Made by a program: the position numbers and the translations under genes
Notes under the pieces: model-generated
Told to the model about the DNA's origin: nothing
Database searches by the model: none
What the model saw: only the letters and a program-made list of their open reading frames with translations
In this document: in pieces, positions 934 through 12,254 of the stretch
Position numbering within the stretch: the first letter of the stretch is position 1
Layout of the letters: each line of letters begins with the position of its first letter
From: Deltaproteobacteria bacterium
GTDB taxonomy: Bacteria; Desulfobacterota; Desulfobacteria; Desulfobacterales; ETH-SRB1
Direction: 5' to 3'
DNA: 12,480 bases
NCBI GenBank assembly: GCA_019314185.1
Contig: JAFCZU010000165.1
Location: 1-12,480, forward strand

Positions 934-2705
934 TTATGTGATTAGCACAACCTCTTCTTCCTTGAACCAACCCTCTTTTATAACGTGATTCTTTACCTGT
1001 TCGGGTCTGGGTGTGTAAGCAACAAGAGCAAGGCTGTCTTCGGCACGGCTGCATGTGACATAGAAAAGTCGTCTTGTGCGATCATTTGAGGTATCCTGTC
1101 CTGGATTTTTTCTCCCGGAATCTTGGTTTGTCCCAAAAAGCTTATCATAGGAAAACATGAATCCTCGGGCTTCAAAATCATCCATAATCACACAGACTCG
1201 TGAAAATTCTAAACCCTTAATACCTTGATGGGTATCGTACTGAGCCTCTCCTTGAATGTACTGACTGTAACGTTCAATTTGATCAAACGGTGTTTCAAGA
1301 AAATTACTCCACGCTCCCAACTCATCATTCTTATCTTCAGTTTCTTCGGCTTCCTCGAATTCTTCTGTAGGATCTTCAACGAACTTTGCAAATGTGCGTA
1401 GGATTTCCGGCAATCTGAATAAATTTGTCTCATTTACCGTTTTTAGCACTTGTAAAAAAGTAGGAATATTCTTTTCGGACCAAAGAGCGGTTAAGGAGTC
1501 CATTGCCAACTTTGCCTTTTTGATTTGACTTGTTTGATCATCAGCGCATGCTTCAAGAGTGTTTTTTTCAAGTAGAGGAGAGTCTTTGCGAACTATCGAT
1601 GCTACAGCAAAGCTATTGTCATTTTTATGAGCCTTGATTAAAGGCAAGATGATATGTGAAAAAAAGCGCAATCCAGGCAACGTTCCGTCCCTAAGTCCGG
1701 TCTGTAGACGGTTTACACCACTAAGTGCATCCCACATAGGCAGGAAATTAAGCCGATTGGCTGCCATGCGATGTTCCAGAATAAGGGTCTTTACGTGTTT
1801 ACCAGGTTCGAGCCAGTCTGTATCTTCCGTTATCTCAGCCATTCGTATACAGATCTCAAGCTCTTGGGTGGATTTATCGACGGTTTCAGTCGGTAATATG
1901 AAAAACCTAACAAAACCTTCACTTTTGTCTGAACGTGGTTGCTGAGTTTGGTTGTCGACAGGCTGCCGGATACGATTGATCAGTTTAATAATACGGTGAC
2001 AAGATCGGTGATTCATTTTTTTTGACGGCGTCGCCCAATCATCAGGCAGATTACTGTCAAGATCCAGTTTGCCAGCCGTGTAGATCCGCTGCATCATGTC
2101 TCCGATCGAGGATAAACGACTCTATAAGTTCCCTATTCGTATCTTGGCTCTCATCGATAAGAAGAATAGGAAATCGATTCACAAGTAAACTTTGCATCAA
2201 TGGTTTGTTTGTAAGAAATGCAGATGTGATCTTGATTACTTCGGCGTGGTTGAGAGCATTGTGTTCTGGATTATCACTGTTTGGATTGTAGATGAATTTT
2301 TTTATTTGATTGAGAAGCTCAAGACGTTCACTCTTTGATGCAATCGACTTTATTCGGATAAGTGATGCTTTTGTGCCGGCACGACCTTTGCGTTCTTTTT
2401 CTTCAATTTCTTCAATTTCATTTTGCAGGTTGAGCCTCAGCCATTCTTTTATGTCGTTGTTAAGGCCTTTAATCATCGACCAAGCAAAGCTATGAATGGT
2501 GGAGACTGCGAAAAGATCATCATATTCTATGCGATGCTTGATTTCATTGTAAAGCATCTACGAGAGAACGCGTTTTACCTGACCCTGCGCCAGCAAATAA
2601 AAAGAAGCTGATTGGAGGATCCGCAGTAATACATTCGGCGATCAGTTTATCCGCTTCGTCGTCAATATGATCATCAGTCGGTGCATCTAAATTATCTATC
2701 ATCAT
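934..2705 (-). pseudogene. UvrD/PcrA-like SF1 helicase (GajB-like partner of the OLD nuclease), broken in two places
   Basis: Three consecutive minus-strand frames together spell one SF1A helicase. Frame 1 (2705-2544) carries Walker A, FAGAGSGKTRSLV, then hits a TGA. Frame 2 (readable from 2557 to 2057) carries VSTIHSFAW and the Walker B box ILLIDESQDT. Frame 3 (2097-934) starts at GDMMQRIY and continues with NHRS, HQGIKGLEF (motif V) and LFYVTCSRA (motif VI), ending EEEVVLIT. Between Walker A and the EIKHRI that normally follows the TYTNxA motif, roughly 30 residues are missing. Between DESQDTNRELIESF and GDMMQRIY roughly 15-20 residues are missing. Both losses shift the frame, so this is inactivation rather than programmed frameshifting. 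The ATG overlaps the nuclease stop by ATGA (2702-2705), so the two genes were translationally coupled. Family knowledge: class 2 OLD nucleases (Gabija GajA) work with such a helicase (GajB). Missing lengths are estimated from memory of the family. Confidence 0.85.
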
Positions 2706-5125
2706 GTACCTTCTGAAAGCGCCTTTGTGCTTTCATTTTCTTTCAACAATGCTTCCTTCTGGCGAAGTAACAATTTGTTTTCCAGCCATTTGAGTCCATT
2801 GTGTATATATTCAGGTACGTTAATTAATGCAGGATCTTGGGAATAAAGCATGTCCAAGGCGAACCCTGCTTTATTCCCCGATGTAAGTGCATCAAATAGA
2901 GCTTGGGATAATTCGGAAATATCATTTTTGCTTGTCACAGCCTCTTTGAACTTCTTCAAAAGACCTGTGCCATTTGCCTTGCGAAAAAGATTAATATTTT
3001 CAAAGACTAACGCGTCCTCAAAAGTCCTTGGAATCGCTTCCGAACTTTCTTCTTTTTCCTTTAAAGTCACTTGCACTGGCTTTTGATAGGCTACACGTAT
3101 CGAAAATGAATCATCATAAACTCTTTCTTTTTTGTCCTCTGTTAGATCTAATAATTCATCGAGTGATTCTTTCTCTGGATGCAATTTCTTGAGAACATTA
3201 TTACCAGTCAGCAAACCAGCCCCTCTTTCTGGACGAGCTTTTTTATGGCTGGTGGTATCCTCAACAGCATCAATATCAGTTATAATCAGTGTGTTAAGTC
3301 CTAAATGTTTAATCAAAGGAGCCAACCGATGGGCATGGCTTCCGCCAACTTCCATGAGCGTGACGTAACAACTGTGCAAATCTTTGTAATGATGTCGAAT
3401 GAAATGTGGAACGAGCATTCGCTCCGCAGCGCCTTCCACCAGGATTGCGCCATCCGCAAAGAATAAGTCAGCATGAGTCGCCTGCAAGTAACGGGAAACC
3501 CATTGTGCTGTTTCATCTTGAGTCCCGAAAACTTCCGACAAGTTAATAACAGTTGAAGACGGCGTCTCGTTTGAATTGCGTGCAGGATGCCTCCTGAAAT
3601 AGCGCATGTGGGCGAAGTCGACTTCATGGGCAACATGGCTGGAATGCGTGCTGACCACGAGCTGAGTCGAGAGTGGACTTTTTTTATCTTTCAGGTCAGG
3701 ATGTTGTCGCAGTACATCATAGGCTTTGCGTATAAATACCTGCTGTACCTGCACGTGTAGATGCGCTTCAGGCTCTTCCAATAAGATAAGATGAAGAGGA
3801 GGCAGCGAAATGGTACTCACCCCTGTTTCCTCGTCAGTTCGAGCGGATTTTCCAACCTTCATCCAATCATCGCGGAAGCTGATCAACCGAAATACCATGG
3901 AAATGAGGTTTTGATATCCCAGCCCGTTGCATTGCTCGGGAAGCCGATAAGGAGTTACGCCCTTGTTGTTCGTCGGTGTGACGTCGTACTGGACAGCAGA
4001 CTGATGTTTGAGTCCTTCCACTGGGTTAATGGATGTGGAAATGATTAGACGCGGATTAGCAACCCCTGGATAACCAAGTTGTTCTAACTCATCAAGGGAT
4101 GTTTTGAAACAATCCTTCAATCTTTCATCGAAAGCAACTTGTGCTTCATGAATTGCTTGAAGGGCGGTGATGTCTGAGGGCTCAGGTGCCTTTAAGGGAT
4201 CAAGGTGTTTTCCGTAATATGTTTTTAATTGAGAGGTTAGCAGTTGTCTGCGACCCCTCTCATCCTGATCTGATTCGTCTCCATCTCCACTGGTTCCTGA
4301 ATAATCACTCAAGCCCCGATGAGCTGGAACTTCATCGATTCTTATCAGGCCCTTGAAAGGATTGTCTTCGAGAGGTTCTACATCATCAGGAAGTTTTTGT
4401 GGCCGGGCCACGCCATCACTGGGAGCCTTCTTTTTGGTTGGATCAAGCAGGTATGCTTTCACAGTAAGGGAACCGGACATGCGTTTTTTTAGAAAATCCA
4501 TGAAATTTTCTGGCCAAAGCGAAAAACTATTGCGAGTTCCATCCCCTCCCTCTTGTTCTGTCTCTTCTTGCTTCGTGTCTTCTTGCGCTGTACCCTCTTG
4601 TTCTGTACCTTCTTGCTCCTTCTCCTCTTGGTTATCGATGGGACTTTCTGGAGTCTTGTCCGGTTGCCCTGCATTCAGTGTGTCGAACGAGGCCTTTTTA
4701 GCATTTACATATGCTTTTTGAAGCTCATCAAGTTTCTTAGGTTCCAGCTGCAGACGAACGCCAATCCCTTTATCAGGACTCCAATCCAGAGTTGGGATTA
4801 AATGGGAAACGTGATGGAGTTCACCTTCAGAGACCTTTAGCCAAACATCGAGCGAGGGAAGGATTTCCTTCCATTTGTATTGAGGCTCTTCGTTTTCTGC
4901 TTTCTCGAAAGCCTCACCTAATTCATCAATGCACGGCCAGAGAGCAAGGGGGATATCATAAACTGAAAAGGCGCTCTGCTGGATCAAAAAGTAACGAAGA
5001 GAGGTGATTGCTGATGTTTTGCCGCTATTATTCGCGCCAACAAAAAGCGTCGTTTTTTCTGAAAAATCGAGCCGGACCGCAGCCAGTCGCCTGAAATTCT
5101 TAATTTCTATAAAGTCAATGCGCAT
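2702..5125 (-). CDS. OLD-family ATP-dependent endonuclease with TOPRIM domain (class 2, GajA-like)
   Basis: About 807 residues. The N-terminal ABC-type half starts MRIDFIEIKNFRRL and has Walker A GANNSGKTS near residue 32. LILLEEPEAHLH (signature/Walker B region) lies near residue 450 and VVSTHSSH follows. The C-terminal TOPRIM domain shows LVEGAAERML near 565 and TDIDAVE near 615, holding the metal-binding Glu and the DxD pair. Family knowledge: such proteins are ATP-regulated DNA nickases; in Gabija, GajA senses nucleotide depletion during phage infection. At ~807 residues it is well above the ~580 of typical GajA, partly from an insertion with a Glu/Gln-rich repeat near 170-200. I prefer the ATG at 5125, because the fold begins there; a GTG at 5140 in the same frame has no spaced ribosome-binding site. 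A leader ORF with a strong Shine-Dalgarno overlaps the start and may couple translation. The frame is intact although its helicase partner is broken. It could act alone, like class 1 OLD, or be a relic. Confidence 0.88.
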   Translation of the reverse strand: MRIDFIEIKNFRRLAAVRLDFSEKTTLFVGANNSGKTSAITSLRYFLIQQSAFSVYDIPLALWPCIDELGEAFEKAENEEPQYKWKEILPSLDVWLKVSEGELHHVSHLIPTLDWSPDKGIGVRLQLEPKKLDELQKAYVNAKKASFDTLNAGQPDKTPESPIDNQEEKEQEGTEQEGTAQEDTKQEETEQEGGDGTRNSFSLWPENFMDFLKKRMSGSLTVKAYLLDPTKKKAPSDGVARPQKLPDDVEPLEDNPFKGLIRIDEVPAHRGLSDYSGTSGDGDESDQDERGRRQLLTSQLKTYYGKHLDPLKAPEPSDITALQAIHEAQVAFDERLKDCFKTSLDELEQLGYPGVANPRLIISTSINPVEGLKHQSAVQYDVTPTNNKGVTPYRLPEQCNGLGYQNLISMVFRLISFRDDWMKVGKSARTDEETGVSTISLPPLHLILLEEPEAHLHVQVQQVFIRKAYDVLRQHPDLKDKKSPLSTQLVVSTHSSHVAHEVDFAHMRYFRRHPARNSNETPSSTVINLSEVFGTQDETAQWVSRYLQATHADLFFADGAILVEGAAERMLVPHFIRHHYKDLHSCYVTLMEVGGSHAHRLAPLIKHLGLNTLIITDIDAVEDTTSHKKARPERGAGLLTGNNVLKKLHPEKESLDELLDLTEDKKERVYDDSFSIRVAYQKPVQVTLKEKEESSEAIPRTFEDALVFENINLFRKANGTGLLKKFKEAVTSKNDISELSQALFDALTSGNKAGFALDMLYSQDPALINVPEYIHNGLKWLENKLLLRQKEALLKENESTKALSEGT
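4551..4630 (-). repeat. 15-bp tandem repeat (about 5 copies) coding an EQEGT-type pentapeptide repeat
   Basis: On the plus strand the 15-bp units start at 4551, 4566, 4581, 4596 and 4611, each beginning TCTTG; a sixth TCTTGG begins at 4626. Read on the minus strand they encode EKEQEGTEQEGTAQEDTKQE and a little more, a highly acidic, flexible linker. It lies in the middle of the OLD nuclease, away from both catalytic regions. A unit length divisible by three lets copy number change without breaking the frame. Confidence 0.9.
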
Positions 5126-5183
5126 GGCTTCCACATCCACCTTTAGAATTAAGTATCACATGGTACGCTTCCTGTTTTGGCAT
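5115..5183 (-). pseudogene. ParA/MinD-like ATPase N-terminus, truncated in the P-loop; leader ORF of the OLD gene
   Basis: ATG at 5183 follows AAAAGGAGGCTCATC, the strongest Shine-Dalgarno in this region. The 22-codon ORF begins MPKQEAYHVILNSKGGCG, the typical first strand and deviant Walker A (KGGCGKS/T) of ParA-type ATPases. After KGGCG the sequence departs from the family and stops at TGA 5117-5115. That stop lies 8 nt inside the OLD coding sequence, whose ATG is at 5125-5123. This looks like the 5' end of a ParA-like gene joined to the OLD gene. Functionally it may now be a leader peptide that delivers ribosomes to the OLD start by termination-reinitiation. The ParA identity rests on 18 residues, so it is an inference from pattern. 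Confidence 0.6.
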
Positions 5184-5588
5184 GATGAGCCTCCTTTTGA
5201 TCTATTTAACAAGTTATTGTATACTTTTTTTTCTTGGCTATTCCAGTTAAAAGGATCTGGATAACATGAAATTTGTAATGTTATGTAGCAACAGGTATGA
5301 ATTATTTGTCAGCTGGCTTTCTTTAAAGACCACAGAACGTAGATTTCCAGTCATGCTTTTAAATACATATCTTGCCAACTGCGTAAATCATAAATCAAGC
5401 AATTCTTATGCAGATAGTGTTTGTATATCACAAATTTTAAAAGGTTTCAATTTGTTATGATAGCAGAGATCTTAAATGTTTAGCATTTAGCTTTTCTGTG
5501 TGTCCACTAAATAGGGTAAAGTTCATATGCCCCATACCCTTGAATGACGGTCAAAGAACTTTAAAATTATACACTTTAAATTTTTCAC
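5184..5588. other. Non-coding leader and upstream region of the OLD operon
   Basis: No gene is visible. Transcribed leftward from the promoter at 5422-5450, the ParA-like leader ORF would carry a 5' untranslated region of roughly 230 nt. Its last part (about 5190-5225) resembles the corresponding part upstream of the YhaO-like remnant (about 7026-7060). No riboswitch or tRNA-like fold was recognised. From 5475 to 5588 nothing was found. Confidence 0.5.
5405..5474 (-). promoter_or_regulatory. Promoter and operator repeat, copy A (upstream of ParA leader/OLD)
   Basis: On the minus strand a -35 TTGAAA (5450-5445) and a -10 TATACA (5427-5422) are 17 bp apart. A dyad TGTATA/TATGCA with a 9-bp spacer (5407-5427) overlaps the -10 box; one arm has a single mismatch to the perfect version in copy B. 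The surrounding ~65 bp is highly similar to 7138-7212. Confidence 0.6.
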
Positions 5589-5732
5589 TCACAACTCGTG
5601 GATTTGAATTGCTCGCTTGCCTTTAATACTGTTCGCCTCTTCCACAATCTGCCCCGTGAGGGTCGCCTTGGATCGATCATCATCAAAGTTGATCAGAATA
5701 TCATCCACAATAAATTGTTGTCTCCAGTTTTT
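5589..5732 (-). pseudogene. C-terminal remnant of a YhaN/SbcC-like AAA ATPase
   Basis: Minus-strand codons from about 5729 to the stop at 5589-5591 read ...FIVDDILINFDDDRSKATL, then TGQIVEEANSIKG and end IQIHEL. FIVDDILINFDDDR is the Walker B region of the large SMC-like ATPases of the YhaN family, partners of the YhaO exonuclease. In the family a helical stretch and a THH motif normally follow before the C-terminus; here RSKATL runs straight into QIVEEA, so an internal piece also appears lost. Upstream, the frame runs into the 20-bp repeat and then into the 3' end of the YhcG-like gene in another frame. It has no start of its own and is not expected to be functional. Its identity fits the YhaO-like 5' fragment at the other end of the YhcG-like gene. 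Confidence 0.65.
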
Positions 5733-5752
5733 AACCACGAAATACACGAAAA
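5733..5752 (+). repeat. 20-bp repeat AACCACGAAATACACGAAAA, inverted copy 1
   Basis: Identical to the minus-strand copy at 6906-6887. It lies between the YhaN-like remnant and the 3' end of the YhcG-like gene (stop at 5776), so it marks one boundary of the inserted segment. From memory, this sequence recurs in many bacterial genomes next to accessory genes. Confidence 0.85.
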
Positions 5753-5775
5753 TTACGAACAAGAAAGCAGAGGAA

Positions 5776-6831
5776 TTAATGACCTTTCCATTGCTCATCC
5801 GCTGAAAGTTCAGATTCAATTTCTTCAATAGTGGGTAGACTTGATTTAAGATTTTCAGGCAAGGACTCTGTTATCTGTCTTTCCCACTTGGCAACACCCA
5901 TCGGGTTGGTGAATCCGGCAAGGGCATATTTAGCCAGGGTTCTGTTTTTCTCTTTTACCAGCAATAGTCCGATTGTCGGCTTGTCATCCGGGTGACGCAT
6001 CAGATCATCAACGATATTCATATACATATTCAATTGACTGACATGGCCGGCCTGAAATTTTCCCGCCTTTAACTCAACTACCACATAGCAGCGCAATTTG
6101 AGGTGATAAAAAAGCAGATCAATATAAAAATCATCATCTCCCACTTCCATATGAACCTGTCTACCTACAAAAGCAAACCCCTGCCCCAGTTCCAATAGAA
6201 ATTTTCCAAGGTGATCGATAAGCTTCTGTTCTAATTCCGCTTCTCTACGAGGATCAGCCGTCCCCAGAAAATCAAAAACGTAAGGATCTTTGAAAATTTG
6301 AGATGCCATATCAGAATCGGCAGGAGGGAGCGCCAGTTCAAAGTTATTGGTAGCCTTACCCAATCGTTTGTAAAGCTGCGTTTCAATCTGGAAGGATAAA
6401 ACATCACGACTCCAGCCGTTTTCTATTGTCTTTTGAGCATACCAAAGTCGTTGTTTGAGGTCTTTTATTTTGTCCAATAGTGCCAAATTGCTGCGCCATG
6501 GAATTTGTGCAACGGTGCGTTGCACTAATTGACGATCCTTCCATGATTCAGCAAATTTGCGCATATATTTCAGGTTTCGTGCGGAAAACCCCTTCATATC
6601 CGGGAATGCTTCTTTTAAATCAAATGAAAGCCTGTCTATGACTTTTGCGCCCCAGCCCTCGGTTTGCTGTCTTTCAAGTATGGATGTTCCAATATCCCAA
6701 TAGAGCATCACCATTGCGCAATTGGCAGATATAACCGTCTTAATGCGCTCCTGTTGAATACGTTTCTTGAGGGAGGCTAATAAATTTGCGTAGCCGTCGG
6801 GAAGGTCAGATTGTGAAACCGGAACGGGCAT
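5776..6831 (-). CDS. PDDEXK nuclease of the YhcG/DUF1016 family
   Basis: From the ATG at 6831 the product is 351 residues, the usual family size. The N-terminal DUF1016 domain includes YANLLASLKKRI, MLYWDIGTSILERQ, GWGAKVIDRLS and GFSARNLKYMRKFAE. The C-terminal nuclease domain follows PYVFDFLGT and carries DDDFYIDLLFYHLKLRC and VVVELKAGKF, giving the D...ExK catalytic core. It ends at about ELSADEQWKGH. Family knowledge: DUF1016 proteins are restriction-like nucleases found in defence islands, often near restriction-modification genes; the target is not well defined. Starts at 6909 and 6966 are in frame, but the extra residues there (NHEIHEKQE...) come from the 20-bp repeat and older sequence. 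GGGA lies 7 nt before 6831; GAGGCGG precedes 6909, so a longer product is possible. Transcription probably comes from promoter copy B through the YhaO-like remnant. Confidence 0.88.
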   Translation of the reverse strand: MPVPVSQSDLPDGYANLLASLKKRIQQERIKTVISANCAMVMLYWDIGTSILERQQTEGWGAKVIDRLSFDLKEAFPDMKGFSARNLKYMRKFAESWKDRQLVQRTVAQIPWRSNLALLDKIKDLKQRLWYAQKTIENGWSRDVLSFQIETQLYKRLGKATNNFELALPPADSDMASQIFKDPYVFDFLGTADPRREAELEQKLIDHLGKFLLELGQGFAFVGRQVHMEVGDDDFYIDLLFYHLKLRCYVVVELKAGKFQAGHVSQLNMYMNIVDDLMRHPDDKPTIGLLLVKEKNRTLAKYALAGFTNPMGVAKWERQITESLPENLKSSLPTIEEIESELSADEQWKGH

Positions 6832-6856
6832 GATAATCCCGTTTTTTTGTTTCACA

Positions 6857-7021
6857 TTACGCACCCTTCGCTGTCCTGTTTCTTGCTTTTCGTGTATTTC
6901 GTGGTTCATAAGTCCGCCTCGTCGCCCCGCGAATTTCTTCAACAGGCGCATCTTCATGCGCCTCAAGCCCTTTTAATGGACTATCGAGATGTATGTCTGC
7001 CGTGTGGATAAATTTAACCAT
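6857..7021 (-). pseudogene. YhaO/SbcD-like DNA repair exonuclease, N-terminal fragment (about 39 native codons)
   Basis: From the ATG at 7021 the frame reads MVKFIHTADIHLDSPLKGL, then EAHEDAPVEEIRGATRRTYE. This is the start of metallophosphoesterase nucleases of the YhaO/SbcD type, with the metal-binding D-x-H motif (ADIH). Family resemblance stops at about 6905, exactly where the 20-bp repeat begins; the frame then runs to a stop at 6857-6859. The rest of the nuclease (several hundred residues) is absent. The fragment begins about 130 nt downstream of promoter copy B, so it is probably still transcribed. Its stop lies just upstream of the ATG at 6831, so it could act as a short leader ORF for the YhcG-like gene. 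Confidence 0.75.
6887..6906 (-). repeat. 20-bp repeat AACCACGAAATACACGAAAA, inverted copy 2
   Basis: Exact inverted counterpart of 5733-5752. It directly follows the last recognisable YhaO-like codons. Together the copies bracket about 1.15 kb that holds only the YhcG-like gene. Confidence 0.85.
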
Positions 7022-7137
7022 AGATTTGATACCTATTTGATTTCCTTAACCAATTATTTTATAGTTTCTGAATATTCCTACAGACATTTTGAAGTTCAAA
7101 TTCCTTGCCAGCAGAACAACTCAAGAATCAGACTATA

Positions 7138-7212
7138 TCTTATGCAGATAGTGTTTGCATATCACAATTTTTAAAGTGTTTCAATTTGTTACATAGATAG
7201 CAGATATCTTTA
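7138..7212 (-). promoter_or_regulatory. Promoter and operator repeat, copy B (upstream of YhaO remnant/YhcG gene)
   Basis: On the minus strand the -35 TTGAAA (7184-7179) and the -10 TATGCA (7161-7156) are separated by 17 bp. The -10 box is one arm of a perfect dyad, TATGCA-N9-TGCATA (7141-7161). A protein bound there would cover the -10 and the start site. It shares about 65 bp with copy A, including identical -35, nearly identical spacer and the whole of TATGCAGATAGTGTTTG. Confidence 0.62.
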
Positions 7213-7236
7213 ATTTTAAGGGTGAGCTTAACATTG

Positions 7237-7286
7237 CGCGTCATGCAACACAAGATTAAGTCCTCTACCTGACGTGGCATGACGCG
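7237..7286. repeat. Perfect 10-bp inverted repeat with 30-bp loop
   Basis: CGCGTCATGC (7237-7246) pairs with GCATGACGCG (7277-7286). There is no T-tract, so it is not a typical intrinsic terminator. It could be the end of a mobile-element remnant or a protein-binding dyad; nothing decides between these. Confidence 0.5.
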
Positions 7287-7492
7287 TGCTTCCGGAATAT
7301 GAGATGTTGCCTTCTGTATTCTTGAAGTACATCGGCACTTGGATTTATGTCTCTTGCGAGGCTCAATATTCAGCCTGCACTTTCCCTTGTCAACGCTTCA
7401 CCGGCAATGTTACCATTACCAGCGCACTCAGGGCTGATTTGGGTGGCTAATCCTTAATCATAGGACACTTTCAGTCCCTACTTCTGCCGGTT

Positions 7493-8014
7493 TTAATCGG
7501 CGCTTTCAACCATAGACCCCTTTTTCATATTTCTAATAATTATCAAATGAGAATTAGCCCTTGATGTTGCGACATAAAGCAATTCGTCTTTCCTAACTTC
7601 CCTAATGGCATCTGTTTCTGTGAGAATAACAACCGGACTTTCCAGCCCTTTAAATGAATGAATTGTTGAGCAAAATATATTGTTTTCCATCCCTTGCTCA
7701 GTTCGTTGCCATGTTATAGGACAATTTGCAAAACAATCTCCTGTGTTCCATATTGATTTGCTTTCCTTGTGAGGTGTAAGAATCGTTATATCGGATGGAA
7801 CAACTTTCTCATTTCGTAAAAGGTCAGCAACGACTTTTCTCACAATCTCTTTCTCTGTACTCTGTGCGTTGATCTTAACAATTTCAGGAGACTGCCCCTC
7901 TGGGCCAATGGCCTCAGGTTTAATCTCCCCTCTGTAATACTTCATGGTTTCTTTATGAATTTCTTTGGTATTCCGGCAGTTTTCACACAGAGAAAAGGGT
8001 GGTGTTAGCGGCGG
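7493..8014 (-). pseudogene. SF1 (UvrD-like, possibly NERD-type) helicase, C-terminal 173 codons, 5' end removed by the IS21 element
   Basis: The frame is open from the transposon border at 8014 to the stop at 7493-7495. It contains FSLCENCRNTKEIH, the N-x-R-N-T motif (motif IV region) of UvrD-like helicases. Later it has CSTIHSFKGLESPVVILTE (motif V) and ELLYVATSRANSHLIII (motif VI). Walker A and B and the other N-terminal motifs are absent, because the sequence upstream of 8014 is the transposon. An internal ATG at 7945 could start 150 residues, but that product could not be an active ATPase. The order of motifs resembles nuclease-related-domain (NERD) helicases, but the N-terminus that would show this is missing. 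It is a different gene from the helicase at 934-2705. Confidence 0.8.
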
Positions 8015-8106: not shown

Positions 8107-8841
8107 TTATTCTTTTTTCTCTTCTCTCATCCGATAACTGTCCCCTTCAATAACGACTGCCTCCGTATGATGCAGCAATCTATCAAGCAATGCAGATGTA
8201 AGAGTGCTGTCATTGTTGAAGATTTTTGGCCATTCACGGAACACGCGATTTGTTGTAATAATAATGGAGCCTTGTTCATATCTCTGGCTTATAATCTGGA
8301 AGAGTAGATCTGCGCCTGTTTTATCAATGGGAAGGTAGCCAAGTTCATCAAGATAAAGCAGGCTTGGTTTGAGGTATTTTTTCAGTTCCTGCTTCAATAG
8401 ACCTGCGCGTTGTGCTGCGACCATATTATTGACAGCATCAATGGCGGAGGTGAACAATACCGTATTAGTTTTAAGACAGGCCTGATACCCCAAAGCTGTA
8501 GCAATATGGGTTTTGCCAACACCAACAGAACCTATAAATATGACATTACTTTTTTTCTCGATGAACTTCAAACGGAACAAGTTTTCAATTTGAACCCGGT
8601 TGATTTTTTTAGGCCAGGACCAGTTAAAGTGATCCATGGTTTTTATTACAGGGAATTTAGCCATATGGATTCGGCGCTGGATCATTCTATCCCTGCGCAG
8701 GCCTGATTCCTGCTTAATCAGTTCTGATAGAAAATGAGTATGTGTCCATTCTTTGCGGGCTGCTGTTGCTGCAACCGATTCATAGTTTTCTCTGATATAA
8801 GGCAGTTTTAAATATGACATGTGGTTTTCTAAATCAGTCAT
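8107..8841 (-). CDS. istB: IstB, AAA+ ATPase of IS21-family transposition
   Basis: 244 residues, the usual IstB length. Walker A is GSVGVGKTH (about 104-112) and Walker B is LLYLDELGYLP (about 161-171). IIITTNRVFREW (about 193-204) is the sensor-1 region typical of IstB. Family knowledge: IstB is a DnaA/DnaC-like ATPase that oligomerises on DNA, selects the target and activates the IstA transposase. The start ATG overlaps the end of istA by 8 nt (8834-8841) and is preceded by GGAGATAAAA within istA, so the two are translated together. A terminator follows directly. No defect was seen. Confidence 0.95.
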   Translation of the reverse strand: MTDLENHMSYLKLPYIRENYESVAATAARKEWTHTHFLSELIKQESGLRRDRMIQRRIHMAKFPVIKTMDHFNWSWPKKINRVQIENLFRLKFIEKKSNVIFIGSVGVGKTHIATALGYQACLKTNTVLFTSAIDAVNNMVAAQRAGLLKQELKKYLKPSLLYLDELGYLPIDKTGADLLFQIISQRYEQGSIIITTNRVFREWPKIFNNDSTLTSALLDRLLHHTEAVVIEGDSYRMREEKKE

Positions 8842-10306
8842 TTTTATCTCCTATGCTGTAAACCGAGAAGTCCGGCGGGTTAATGGTTAAATCCAGTAAA
8901 TCACTACTTCTGGTAACATGAAGTGCCCCCGGCTCTTCGGCCGGGCGTAATCGCTGTTCTAAAATGTTGGTAATATATTCACTTGAGAAAGCATCAAATT
9001 TAATAGCGTCCTCAATAGCCAGGGCAATCTGTTCTTTAGGATAAATTTCACTTAAAGCAACAATTTTCCGGATATGAAGGAACGGGTTTAACCGACGATG
9101 TCCTAATTGCATGTAATACTCTTTTGCCTTATCGGATAAGGTTAAAAACCGCATGTAGATTGCCTGATCCGACGCTTTTTTTCTTTGGGCCAACAATATT
9201 TTTGAATGATCCGGATTTTGTATGTCCTGCTTGCGATCATAACTTCTGGCATGCCGGGCAACCAAATCTTTCCCATGATACAGGCAAATCCGGTCCGTGT
9301 ATTTTTTTAAAGTAAGTCTGACACCGGCCAATTGTGCCGGAACCGTATACCTGTTGCCGTCAAGGCTTATCCTGTATTGTGGTGAAGCTCTGACCTGACT
9401 GATTTGGCTGACATCATAGGGGGTTGCAGGTAACCGCCCAAGATGAGAGGATTCTTCTTTGAACATATCCAAAGGACGTTTGCCGGTTTCTCCATGGGTT
9501 CTGACATTGGCTATTGTGTCAACCCAAGTTTTTGCCACAGGCTCCATCACACAAAAGTCCGGTATATCCAAGCCGTTCAAAAGATTCTTTTTTACATAGC
9601 CCACTGCATTTTCCACACGGCCTTTTTCATTGCCTTTACCCACATTACAGGCAGCGATTGAGAACCCGTAGTAGTTTGCAAAATCAAGATATCCAGGGTT
9701 GAATACCGGCGCGCACCCAACGGTTCTTTTCAGCACAGCGGATTTGAGATTATCCACCATGATTTTTTGGGGAACCGCACCAAAAAAATGAAATGCATTC
9801 AGATGGCATCCTAAAAAATGTTCCATGGTTTGAGATACTGTAAATTCAAGGTACATCATCCGGCTGTGGCACAGCACCATCACAAAAAAGCTTAATCTGC
9901 GGGTGGTCGAACCTACACGAACCGTTCCATATGATCCCCAGTCCACCTGGGCGCACTCACCCGGGGCAAATTCCAGTTTTAAATATGCTTTTATTTTAGG
10001 AGGACGGATCTTTCTGACATAATCTTCCACAATGGTGATTCTTCCTTTAAATCCGTCTTCTTTAATACGCTGGTAAATCTGTCGCGCTGTAAAGGCATGT
10101 TTTTCCAGCATTTGAATAATATGGTCTTTAAAAGGATCAAGCTTGCTCTTACGCGGTGTTGATTTTCTTGCCCGGTATCTTTTTTCATTTGCCCAAATTG
10201 CCACTGTTCGCTGATCCAATCCCAGTTTGTTGGCTATCTGGCTGTATTTTAAATAATCTCGGGTAAAATAATTTCTGATCCGCACATAGGTTTCATAATC
10301 AATCAT
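8834..10306 (-). CDS. istA: IstA, DDE transposase of an IS21-family element
   Basis: 490 residues, normal for IstA. The N-terminal helix-turn-helix is YSQIANKLGLDQRTVAIWAN (about 21-40). The rve-type catalytic core shows Asp122 (QVDWG), Asp185 (MVDNLK) and Glu232 (GRVENAVGY), a complete DDE triad. A beta-rich C-terminal domain follows (YRISLDGNRYTVPAQL). It cuts and joins the element ends with IstB. The ATG overlaps the stop of the upstream accessory gene (ATGA, 10303-10306) and is preceded by GGGAGGTGG. The gene appears intact, so the element may still be able to move. Confidence 0.96.
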   Translation of the reverse strand: MIDYETYVRIRNYFTRDYLKYSQIANKLGLDQRTVAIWANEKRYRARKSTPRKSKLDPFKDHIIQMLEKHAFTARQIYQRIKEDGFKGRITIVEDYVRKIRPPKIKAYLKLEFAPGECAQVDWGSYGTVRVGSTTRRLSFFVMVLCHSRMMYLEFTVSQTMEHFLGCHLNAFHFFGAVPQKIMVDNLKSAVLKRTVGCAPVFNPGYLDFANYYGFSIAACNVGKGNEKGRVENAVGYVKKNLLNGLDIPDFCVMEPVAKTWVDTIANVRTHGETGKRPLDMFKEESSHLGRLPATPYDVSQISQVRASPQYRISLDGNRYTVPAQLAGVRLTLKKYTDRICLYHGKDLVARHARSYDRKQDIQNPDHSKILLAQRKKASDQAIYMRFLTLSDKAKEYYMQLGHRRLNPFLHIRKIVALSEIYPKEQIALAIEDAIKFDAFSSEYITNILEQRLRPAEEPGALHVTRSSDLLDLTINPPDFSVYSIGDKND

Positions 10307-11606: not shown

Positions 11607-11966
11607 ATGGATGTAAAAAGAAGAACAATTATTGATGTTCAGTTTTATAAGTCAGACGCAGGGGGTATCCCTGTCAAGGAATGGTTAAAAAAATTGACCG
11701 TCGCTGACAGAAAAAATATCGGTGATGATATCCGGACTGTTGAATTTGGATGGCCTATTGGTATGCCACTTGTTGAAAAAATAGATATGAACTTATGGGA
11801 AGTCCGTTCTAATTTATCAAACAACCGGATTTCCAGAGTTCTTTTCACGGTATACAGCGATATGATGGTTCTTTTACATGCCTTTATCAAAAAAACCTCA
11901 AAAACGCCCAAGAACGATCTGAAGACAGCAAAACGACGTATGTCACATATTAAAAGGAGAAAATAA
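11607..11966 (+). CDS. higB: RelE/HigB-like toxin, phage Gp49-like family (DUF891)
   Basis: 119 residues. The pattern VQFYKSDAGGIPVKEWLKKL near the start, then VEFGWPIGMPLVEKI, LWEVRSNLSNNRISRVLFT and LLHAFIKKTSKTP, is typical of the Gp49/HigB branch of RelE-fold toxins. Family knowledge: these cut mRNA on the ribosome and are held inactive by a cognate antitoxin. The toxin gene comes first, as in higBA loci, and its stop directly abuts the antitoxin start. The ATG at 11607 lies close to the -10 region with no Shine-Dalgarno, which suggests weak or leaderless translation and would keep toxin low relative to antitoxin. The frame is complete. Confidence 0.9.
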   Translation: MDVKRRTIIDVQFYKSDAGGIPVKEWLKKLTVADRKNIGDDIRTVEFGWPIGMPLVEKIDMNLWEVRSNLSNNRISRVLFTVYSDMMVLLHAFIKKTSKTPKNDLKTAKRRMSHIKRRK

Positions 11967-12254
11967 ATGATCAGAACTAATAAAAATTTAGGCGGGAGTT
12001 TCAATGATTTTCTTAAAGAAGAAGGTATCCTTGAAAAATGCACGGAAACGGCCATCAAAAGAGTCTTAGCTTGGCAAATAGAACAGGAAATGAAAAAGAA
12101 CAACCTGTCTAAATCAGCTATGGCAAGAAAAATGAAAACAAGCCGATCATCCCTTGACAGAATCCTTGACCCTATCAATGAATCAGTGACATTACATACC
12201 TTAAAAAAGGCAGCTCATGCCGTCGGTCGAACAGTAAAGCTCGAATTAGCCTAA
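11967..12254 (+). CDS. higA: XRE-family antitoxin (HigA-like)
   Basis: 95 residues. An N-terminal arm (MIRTNKNLGGSFNDFL) precedes a helix-turn-helix: LAWQIEQEMKKNNLSKSAMA and RKMKTSRSSLDRILDP (about 33-70), then TLHTLKKAAHAVGRTVKLEL. This arrangement matches antitoxins paired with Gp49-like toxins. Family knowledge: it binds and neutralises the toxin and represses the shared promoter. The ATG directly follows the toxin stop (TAA then ATG), and AAGGAGA lies 6 nt upstream, much stronger than anything before the toxin, so antitoxin should be made in excess. The next gene converges from the right edge. Confidence 0.9.
   Translation: MIRTNKNLGGSFNDFLKEEGILEKCTETAIKRVLAWQIEQEMKKNNLSKSAMARKMKTSRSSLDRILDPINESVTLHTLKKAAHAVGRTVKLELA

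Follow-up and report, generated by a model that had tools for sequence, protein, structure and literature searches.

A yhcG-type nuclease gene in place of most of a yhaO-yhaN operon, with two arms of an interspersed hairpin repeat

A yhcG gene between the remains of yhaO and yhaN

The window analysed here, the whole 12,480-nucleotide stretch of contig JAFCZU010000165.1, carries a yhcG gene at 5776-6909 on the reverse strand, identified from its open frame, Pfam, PADLOC and DNA identity. The gene has 377 codons without an internal stop, starts with an ATG at 6909-6907 and encodes a DUF1016_N domain followed by a YhcG_C nuclease domain of PDDEXK type. Both domains match nearly at full length (PF17761, 4.1e-44; PF06250, 1.7e-62), and scores of 210.4 bits (PF06250) and 150.4 bits (PF17761) against curated cut-offs of 32.5 and 32.8 place the product in the YhcG/DUF1016 family (COG4804, PF06250-PF17761). 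It shares with this family both domains and a VVELK motif, typical of PDDEXK enzymes, that is present in its translation. PADLOC assigns it to the candidate defence family PDC-S02 (3e-149). An earlier study predicts YhcG to be a PD-(D/E)XK nuclease (PMC1189080), and a genome paper lists PDC-S02 as a candidate defence system (PMC11719660). Judging from the sequence, YhcG is probably a DNA-cutting defence enzyme, and a defence role is likely for the copy in the window.

A Gabija-like system adjoins the gene at 934-2700 and 2702-5140 on the reverse strand (PADLOC, open frames). Its gajA is open over 812 codons (GajA, 7.5e-280); gajB is split over three frames, being either frameshifted or mis-sequenced. 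Among distant yhcG relatives, type I restriction genes were read by eye in the flanks of four loci (L005, L006, L007 and L009).

The fragments on either side of yhcG were identified through an intact relative rather than through Pfam or solved structures: a Pfam search with the two remnants alone gave no yhaO or yhaN match, and a solved-structure search with the yhaO remnant listed just a designed protein (E 0.84). The relative G403 keeps the whole operon at locus L134, with a yhaO of 419 codons (Metallophos domain) and a yhaN of 1167 codons (AAA_27 domain), in the same order and on the same strand as the remnants in the window. The first 36 codons of yhaO (6914-7021, reverse strand) share 94% protein identity over 36 residues with the L134 gene, and at the DNA level 6906-7022 corresponds to L134 4394-4278 with 90.6% identity. 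The frame of this fragment continues for 18 codons and ends at a TAA inside yhcG. With a 46-residue probe from 7021, matches were found in 23 of 58 relatives of G001 (E up to 0.01), the best of them in G403 (87% over 39 residues).

On the other side, all on the reverse strand, a yhaN fragment (FIVDDILINFDDDRSKATL) at 5654-5715 corresponds to L134 8922-8861 with 93.5% identity. It is followed by the last yhaN codons and stop (5589-5653) and a conserved 3' flank (5459-5588), which together (5459-5653) align with L134 9168-8974 at 91.3% identity; between the two yhaN pieces a further 51 bp (17 codons) are lost. Relative to L134, the window lacks 4,466 bp (L134 4395-8860) and has 1,190 bp (5716-6905) in their place. 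The complete metallophosphatase and ATPase genes of this SbcD/SbcC-like operon are thus absent: both ends are recognisable in their original order and strand, and such fragments are surely non-functional as a pair. A yhcG-type gene has replaced most of a yhaO-yhaN operon.

These alignments bear out the central part of a preliminary description of this DNA, namely that the remnants are the start of YhaO and the end of YhaN (90-94% identity) and that several kilobases between them have given way to one nuclease gene. Its suggestion of comparing the remnants with protein families fared in part: Pfam was silent, and the intact yhaO and yhaN of L134 supplied the match. One detail has to be corrected, as the first six residues ascribed to YhaN (KNWRQQ) are encoded, according to the alignment, by the tail of the incoming segment.

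Alignment of the window with L134 found no similarity before the yhaO start, on its upstream side, so that either a second break or plain divergence begins there. In the genome that holds L001, a second yhaO start lies at L137 5058-5240 as a 60-codon open frame with other genes after it, and is possibly a second gutted yhaO.

A second interspersed repeat of the window, apart from the 20-mers described below, is present as direct copies at 5404-5483 and 7138-7220, both on the forward strand. We considered it as a target duplication and rejected it, since a probe of 7138-7225 had 36 matches in 8 of the 19 genomes around G403: it is one more dispersed repeat. A group II intron match (RF02005, 99.1 bits) at 7252-7471 on the reverse strand contains no open frame of at least 60 codons and is located immediately past the end of a C-terminal fragment of a UvrD helicase (7493-7945). 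An IS21-family istB/istA pair occupies 8107-10306 (reverse strand), and a 32-bp unit is perfectly duplicated in tandem at 448-511. At 11607-12254 on the forward strand, a Gp49-family gene (DUF891) and, after it, a gene whose helix-turn-helix matches are weak are likely a toxin-antitoxin pair.

The incoming segment and the position of the 20-mers

The 20-mer AACCACGAAATACACGAAAA is found exactly at 5733-5752 on the forward strand and at 6887-6906 on the reverse strand, confirming the inverted pair reported earlier; it did not appear in any of 200 shuffles of the window at up to 3 mismatches. The same report had put the two copies exactly at the junctions and had taken them for the ends of a defined, transposase-free cassette. 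The first point does not hold: the 5' copy sits directly after the ATG of yhcG, within the gene, where it forms codons 2-8, and the 3' copy lies in the 3' spacer of yhcG, separated from yhaN by 17 bp (5732-5716).

To delimit the incoming DNA we relied on the three closest yhcG loci with DNA: L001 (91.6% identity), L058 (88-91%, in two pieces) and L002 (81.6%). The two pieces in L058 reflect an interruption of its yhcG by about 260 bp (about 5635-5892). In all three loci GAGGAWAWTAAGGCAGMATTATGAAT precedes yhcG, and a short spacer followed by CTGGAGACRACAATGRATAAATTGACA comes after it; CTGGAGACRACAATGRATAAATTGACA can be read as a ribosome-binding site with the first bases of the next gene, putatively a type III modification-methylase-like one. 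The 17 bp at 5716-5732 of the window (AAAAACTGGAGACAACA, reverse strand) align downstream of yhcG in L001, L002 and L058, the tail CTGGAGACRACAAT being common to all four, and in the window this tail lies beyond the 3' 20-mer. It is probably the former ribosome-binding site of the downstream gene.

At the 5' end, the blastn match of the yhcG region to L001 extends to 6919, past the 20-mer. Together with the L134 and L001 alignments, this points to a probable scrap of the segment at 6907-6919 (AGGCGGACTTATG, reverse strand), which is joined to yhaO through a short microhomology. We are less certain of where this scrap comes from than we are for the 3' tail, because it is short (11 of its 13 bases are like L058) and also resembles yhaO. 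The 3' 20-mer is thus clearly nested inside the incoming segment and the 5' 20-mer likely so; with segment material outside the one copy, and probably outside the other, the 20-mers are not the segment ends.

The surroundings of the three related genes differ. Pfam places yhcG next to an HTH/IrrE-type gene and an RNase_T (dnaQ-type) exonuclease gene in L001, an HTH/IrrE-type gene and cas3 in L002, and a WYL gene and cas3 in L058. Around yhcG, these loci nevertheless share scraps of one earlier set of neighbours, parts of which are also present in the window, and the ends of the segment vary from one locus to the other. In L001, an imperfect direct duplication of about 110 bp (about 5760-5870 and 7215-7330) borders yhcG on both sides; it covers the junction between the irrE-type gene and the dnaQ-type gene.

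Neither 20-mer has a counterpart in these loci: the 18-base core of the repeat is absent from all three at up to 3 mismatches. The 3' spacer of the window is longer than theirs and unlike them. At the 5' site they have other bases, for instance ATGAATCGCGAAAGAGATAAAAAG in L058, and the 20-mer aligns without gaps with the native codons 2-8, so that the length is unchanged. The product starts with MNHEIHEK in the window versus MNGERDKK or MNDERDKK in relatives and MNRERDKK in L058; an NHExHE start was absent from all 120 protein relatives among the matches listed (120 of 7,998). The 20-mer differs from L058 at 6 of 20 bases and from L001 at 7 of 20. Compared with L001, the window gene has differences at 7 of the 24 sites in codons 1-8 and at 81 of 1056 elsewhere (Fisher p = 0.002); the excess is weaker against L058 (6/24 vs 29/276, p = 0.046), while L001 and L058 differ from each other at 1 of these 24 sites. 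The window gene is set apart from its family by its place within yhaON remnants and by these first codons, probably overwritten by the repeat.

An interspersed hairpin repeat

Each of the two 20-mers is an arm of a hairpin repeat that is widely interspersed. A scan of 395 genomes of the phylum found the 20-mer, with 1 mismatch at most, in 17 of them and gave no match of the reversed-pattern control. In ten genomes, picked for having the 20-mer, a close yhcG or yhaON, the looser pattern ACCACGAANNACACGAA was found at one mismatch in every case, with 1 to 144 copies vs 0-5 in the controls (30 in G403, 36 in G001, 144 in G073 and one in G003). Single weak sites are unsafe, because G403 gives 43 sites at two mismatches vs 13 for reversed-pattern controls. 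A search of viral contigs returned two that match the 20-mer and, for yhcG, one relative with 48% identity.

At these sites the repeat consists of ACCACGAAG-AACACGAAG and its reverse complement on either side of a loop, with 9-bp units CACGAAnnA; the four clear arm pairs fold strongly (z-scores -6.3 to -10.5). It resembles the REP/BIME elements, which are interspersed hairpin repeats: they are likewise short, mostly intergenic, present in many copies and arranged in inverted, hairpin-forming pairs. Unlike them, the repeat has 9-bp sub-repeats and no RAYT-type gene beside it. A RAYT origin was rejected, the motif standing beside none of 30 Y1_Tnp loci (of 43 matches, 6 genomes). We found no name for the family in the literature: six spelled variants of the repeat were not found, though such sequences are rarely printed as one word, and the matches listed for palindromic repeats and Desulfobacter held nothing relevant.

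The geometry of the repeat was counted over 149 merged sites in 7 genomes, excluding G001, G073, G003 (one site) and 13 two-mismatch sites of G403. Of 25 neighbouring pairs of arms no more than 250 bp apart, 21 are convergent, that is inverted; the figure is 2/4 at 251-499 bp, 2/15 at 0.5-5 kb and 3/19 beyond 5 kb. Counting neighbours only is biased against a cassette, because the neighbours of hairpins are divergent by construction. When all pairs at 0.5-5 kb are taken, 11 of 45 are convergent, 11 divergent and 23 on the same strand, and lone arms at this distance are convergent in 4 of 18 cases. The convergent arrangement of the window is in no excess at 0.5-5 kb and is as frequent as chance would give.

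In G403, 26 of the 30 sites lie outside open frames of at least 150 codons (some sites being two arms of one element), whereas 75% of positions drawn at random from these loci fall inside such a frame. The 20-mer belongs to a scattered hairpin repeat that in relatives is mostly intergenic. The possibility raised beforehand, that it would be strewn about with no preference for gene borders, is right as to the scattering; the sites are mostly intergenic all the same, and they do not bracket genes.

In G403 the repeat has a density of about one copy per 110 kb, and for such a repeat the convergent pair of the window, with its exact copies 1.13 kb from each other, is unusual. Among 270 loci examined, five contain the exact 20-mer (two of them, L085 and L149, are one place) and none an exact pair. 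The core was found at up to 3 mismatches in three of 80 yhcG loci: about 3 kb from yhcG in L005, near the yhcG start in L011 (a 3-mismatch match), and as a related repeat at 7143-7169 of L004, directly behind the yhcG stop codon of a Nitrospirae MAG whose yhcG is 70% identical. The repeat may be associated with the 3' end of yhcG.

Replacement by recombination and its alternatives

We consider it probable that the yhaO-yhaN operon was replaced illegitimately by a yhcG segment, with local conversion between repeat copies in addition. The order of events that we infer is the following. Besides yhcG, the segment would have brought along some bases of the gene's previous 5' neighbour and about 60 bases of spacer from its 3' side, and it would have replaced about 4.5 kb of chromosomal yhaO-yhaN by illegitimate recombination. 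This is suggested by the short sequence shared at the junctions (AAGGCRG at the yhaO junction and about 2 bp, AT, at the yhaN junction) and by the alignment with relatives, in which no target duplication is seen at either junction. An arm of the hairpin repeat would have got into the spacer 3' of yhcG. The first codons of the gene, which in L058 agree with the 20-mer at 14 of 20 bases, would then probably have been made identical to it by template switching or gene conversion; such a step is suggested by the excess of change in codons 2-7, directed towards the nearby inverted copy. The gene is probably still expressed, now from the former yhaO transcript.

A broader reading, in which yhcG spreads as a bare gene from one defence locus to another through recurrent recombination, illegitimate or assisted by repeats, and hairpin repeats convert its ends, we regard as doubtful; if true, it would provide a concrete case of transposase-free turnover of defence genes.

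It is unlikely that a single hairpin repeat stood here and received yhcG in its loop, leaving one arm on each side. The orientation of the arms, forward then reverse, is that of hairpin elements, but the tail at the 3' end falls beyond the arm there, the arm at the 5' end matches native codons 2-8 of yhcG with no gaps, and the yhaON of G403 has no repeat site within or close to it, the nearest listed sites on that contig being about 50 kb or more away.

A misjoining of contigs from two organisms appears slightly less likely still: the window may be a metagenome-type contig and has several broken genes nearby, but its junctions lie at short microhomologies rather than at longer repeats, and both yhaON remnants match one relative at 90-94%.

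Least likely of all, and not supported, is that the 20-mers are the true ends of a small yhcG cassette moved by an enzyme supplied from elsewhere. Exact inverted copies do surround one gene, the same gene recurs in several settings, and in L004 a related repeat follows the stop codon of a more distant yhcG. Against this, segment material extends beyond the 3' copy and probably the 5' copy, the core is missing from the three close copies of the segment, whose ends vary, no target duplication accompanies the junctions, 4.5 kb have disappeared, and convergent pairs at 0.5-5 kb show no excess in 7 genomes (11/45).

The literature matches listed for DUF1016/YhcG, YhaO/YhaN and PDC-S02 give no account of such a replacement. 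Replacement by illegitimate recombination looks like a gene exchange of a familiar sort, part of the ordinary patchwork of bacterial genomes. It shows clearly, and at base resolution, a defence-type gene in the place of a DNA-repair operon. It also cautions that exact inverted repeats flanking a gene can simply be two members of a common hairpin family.
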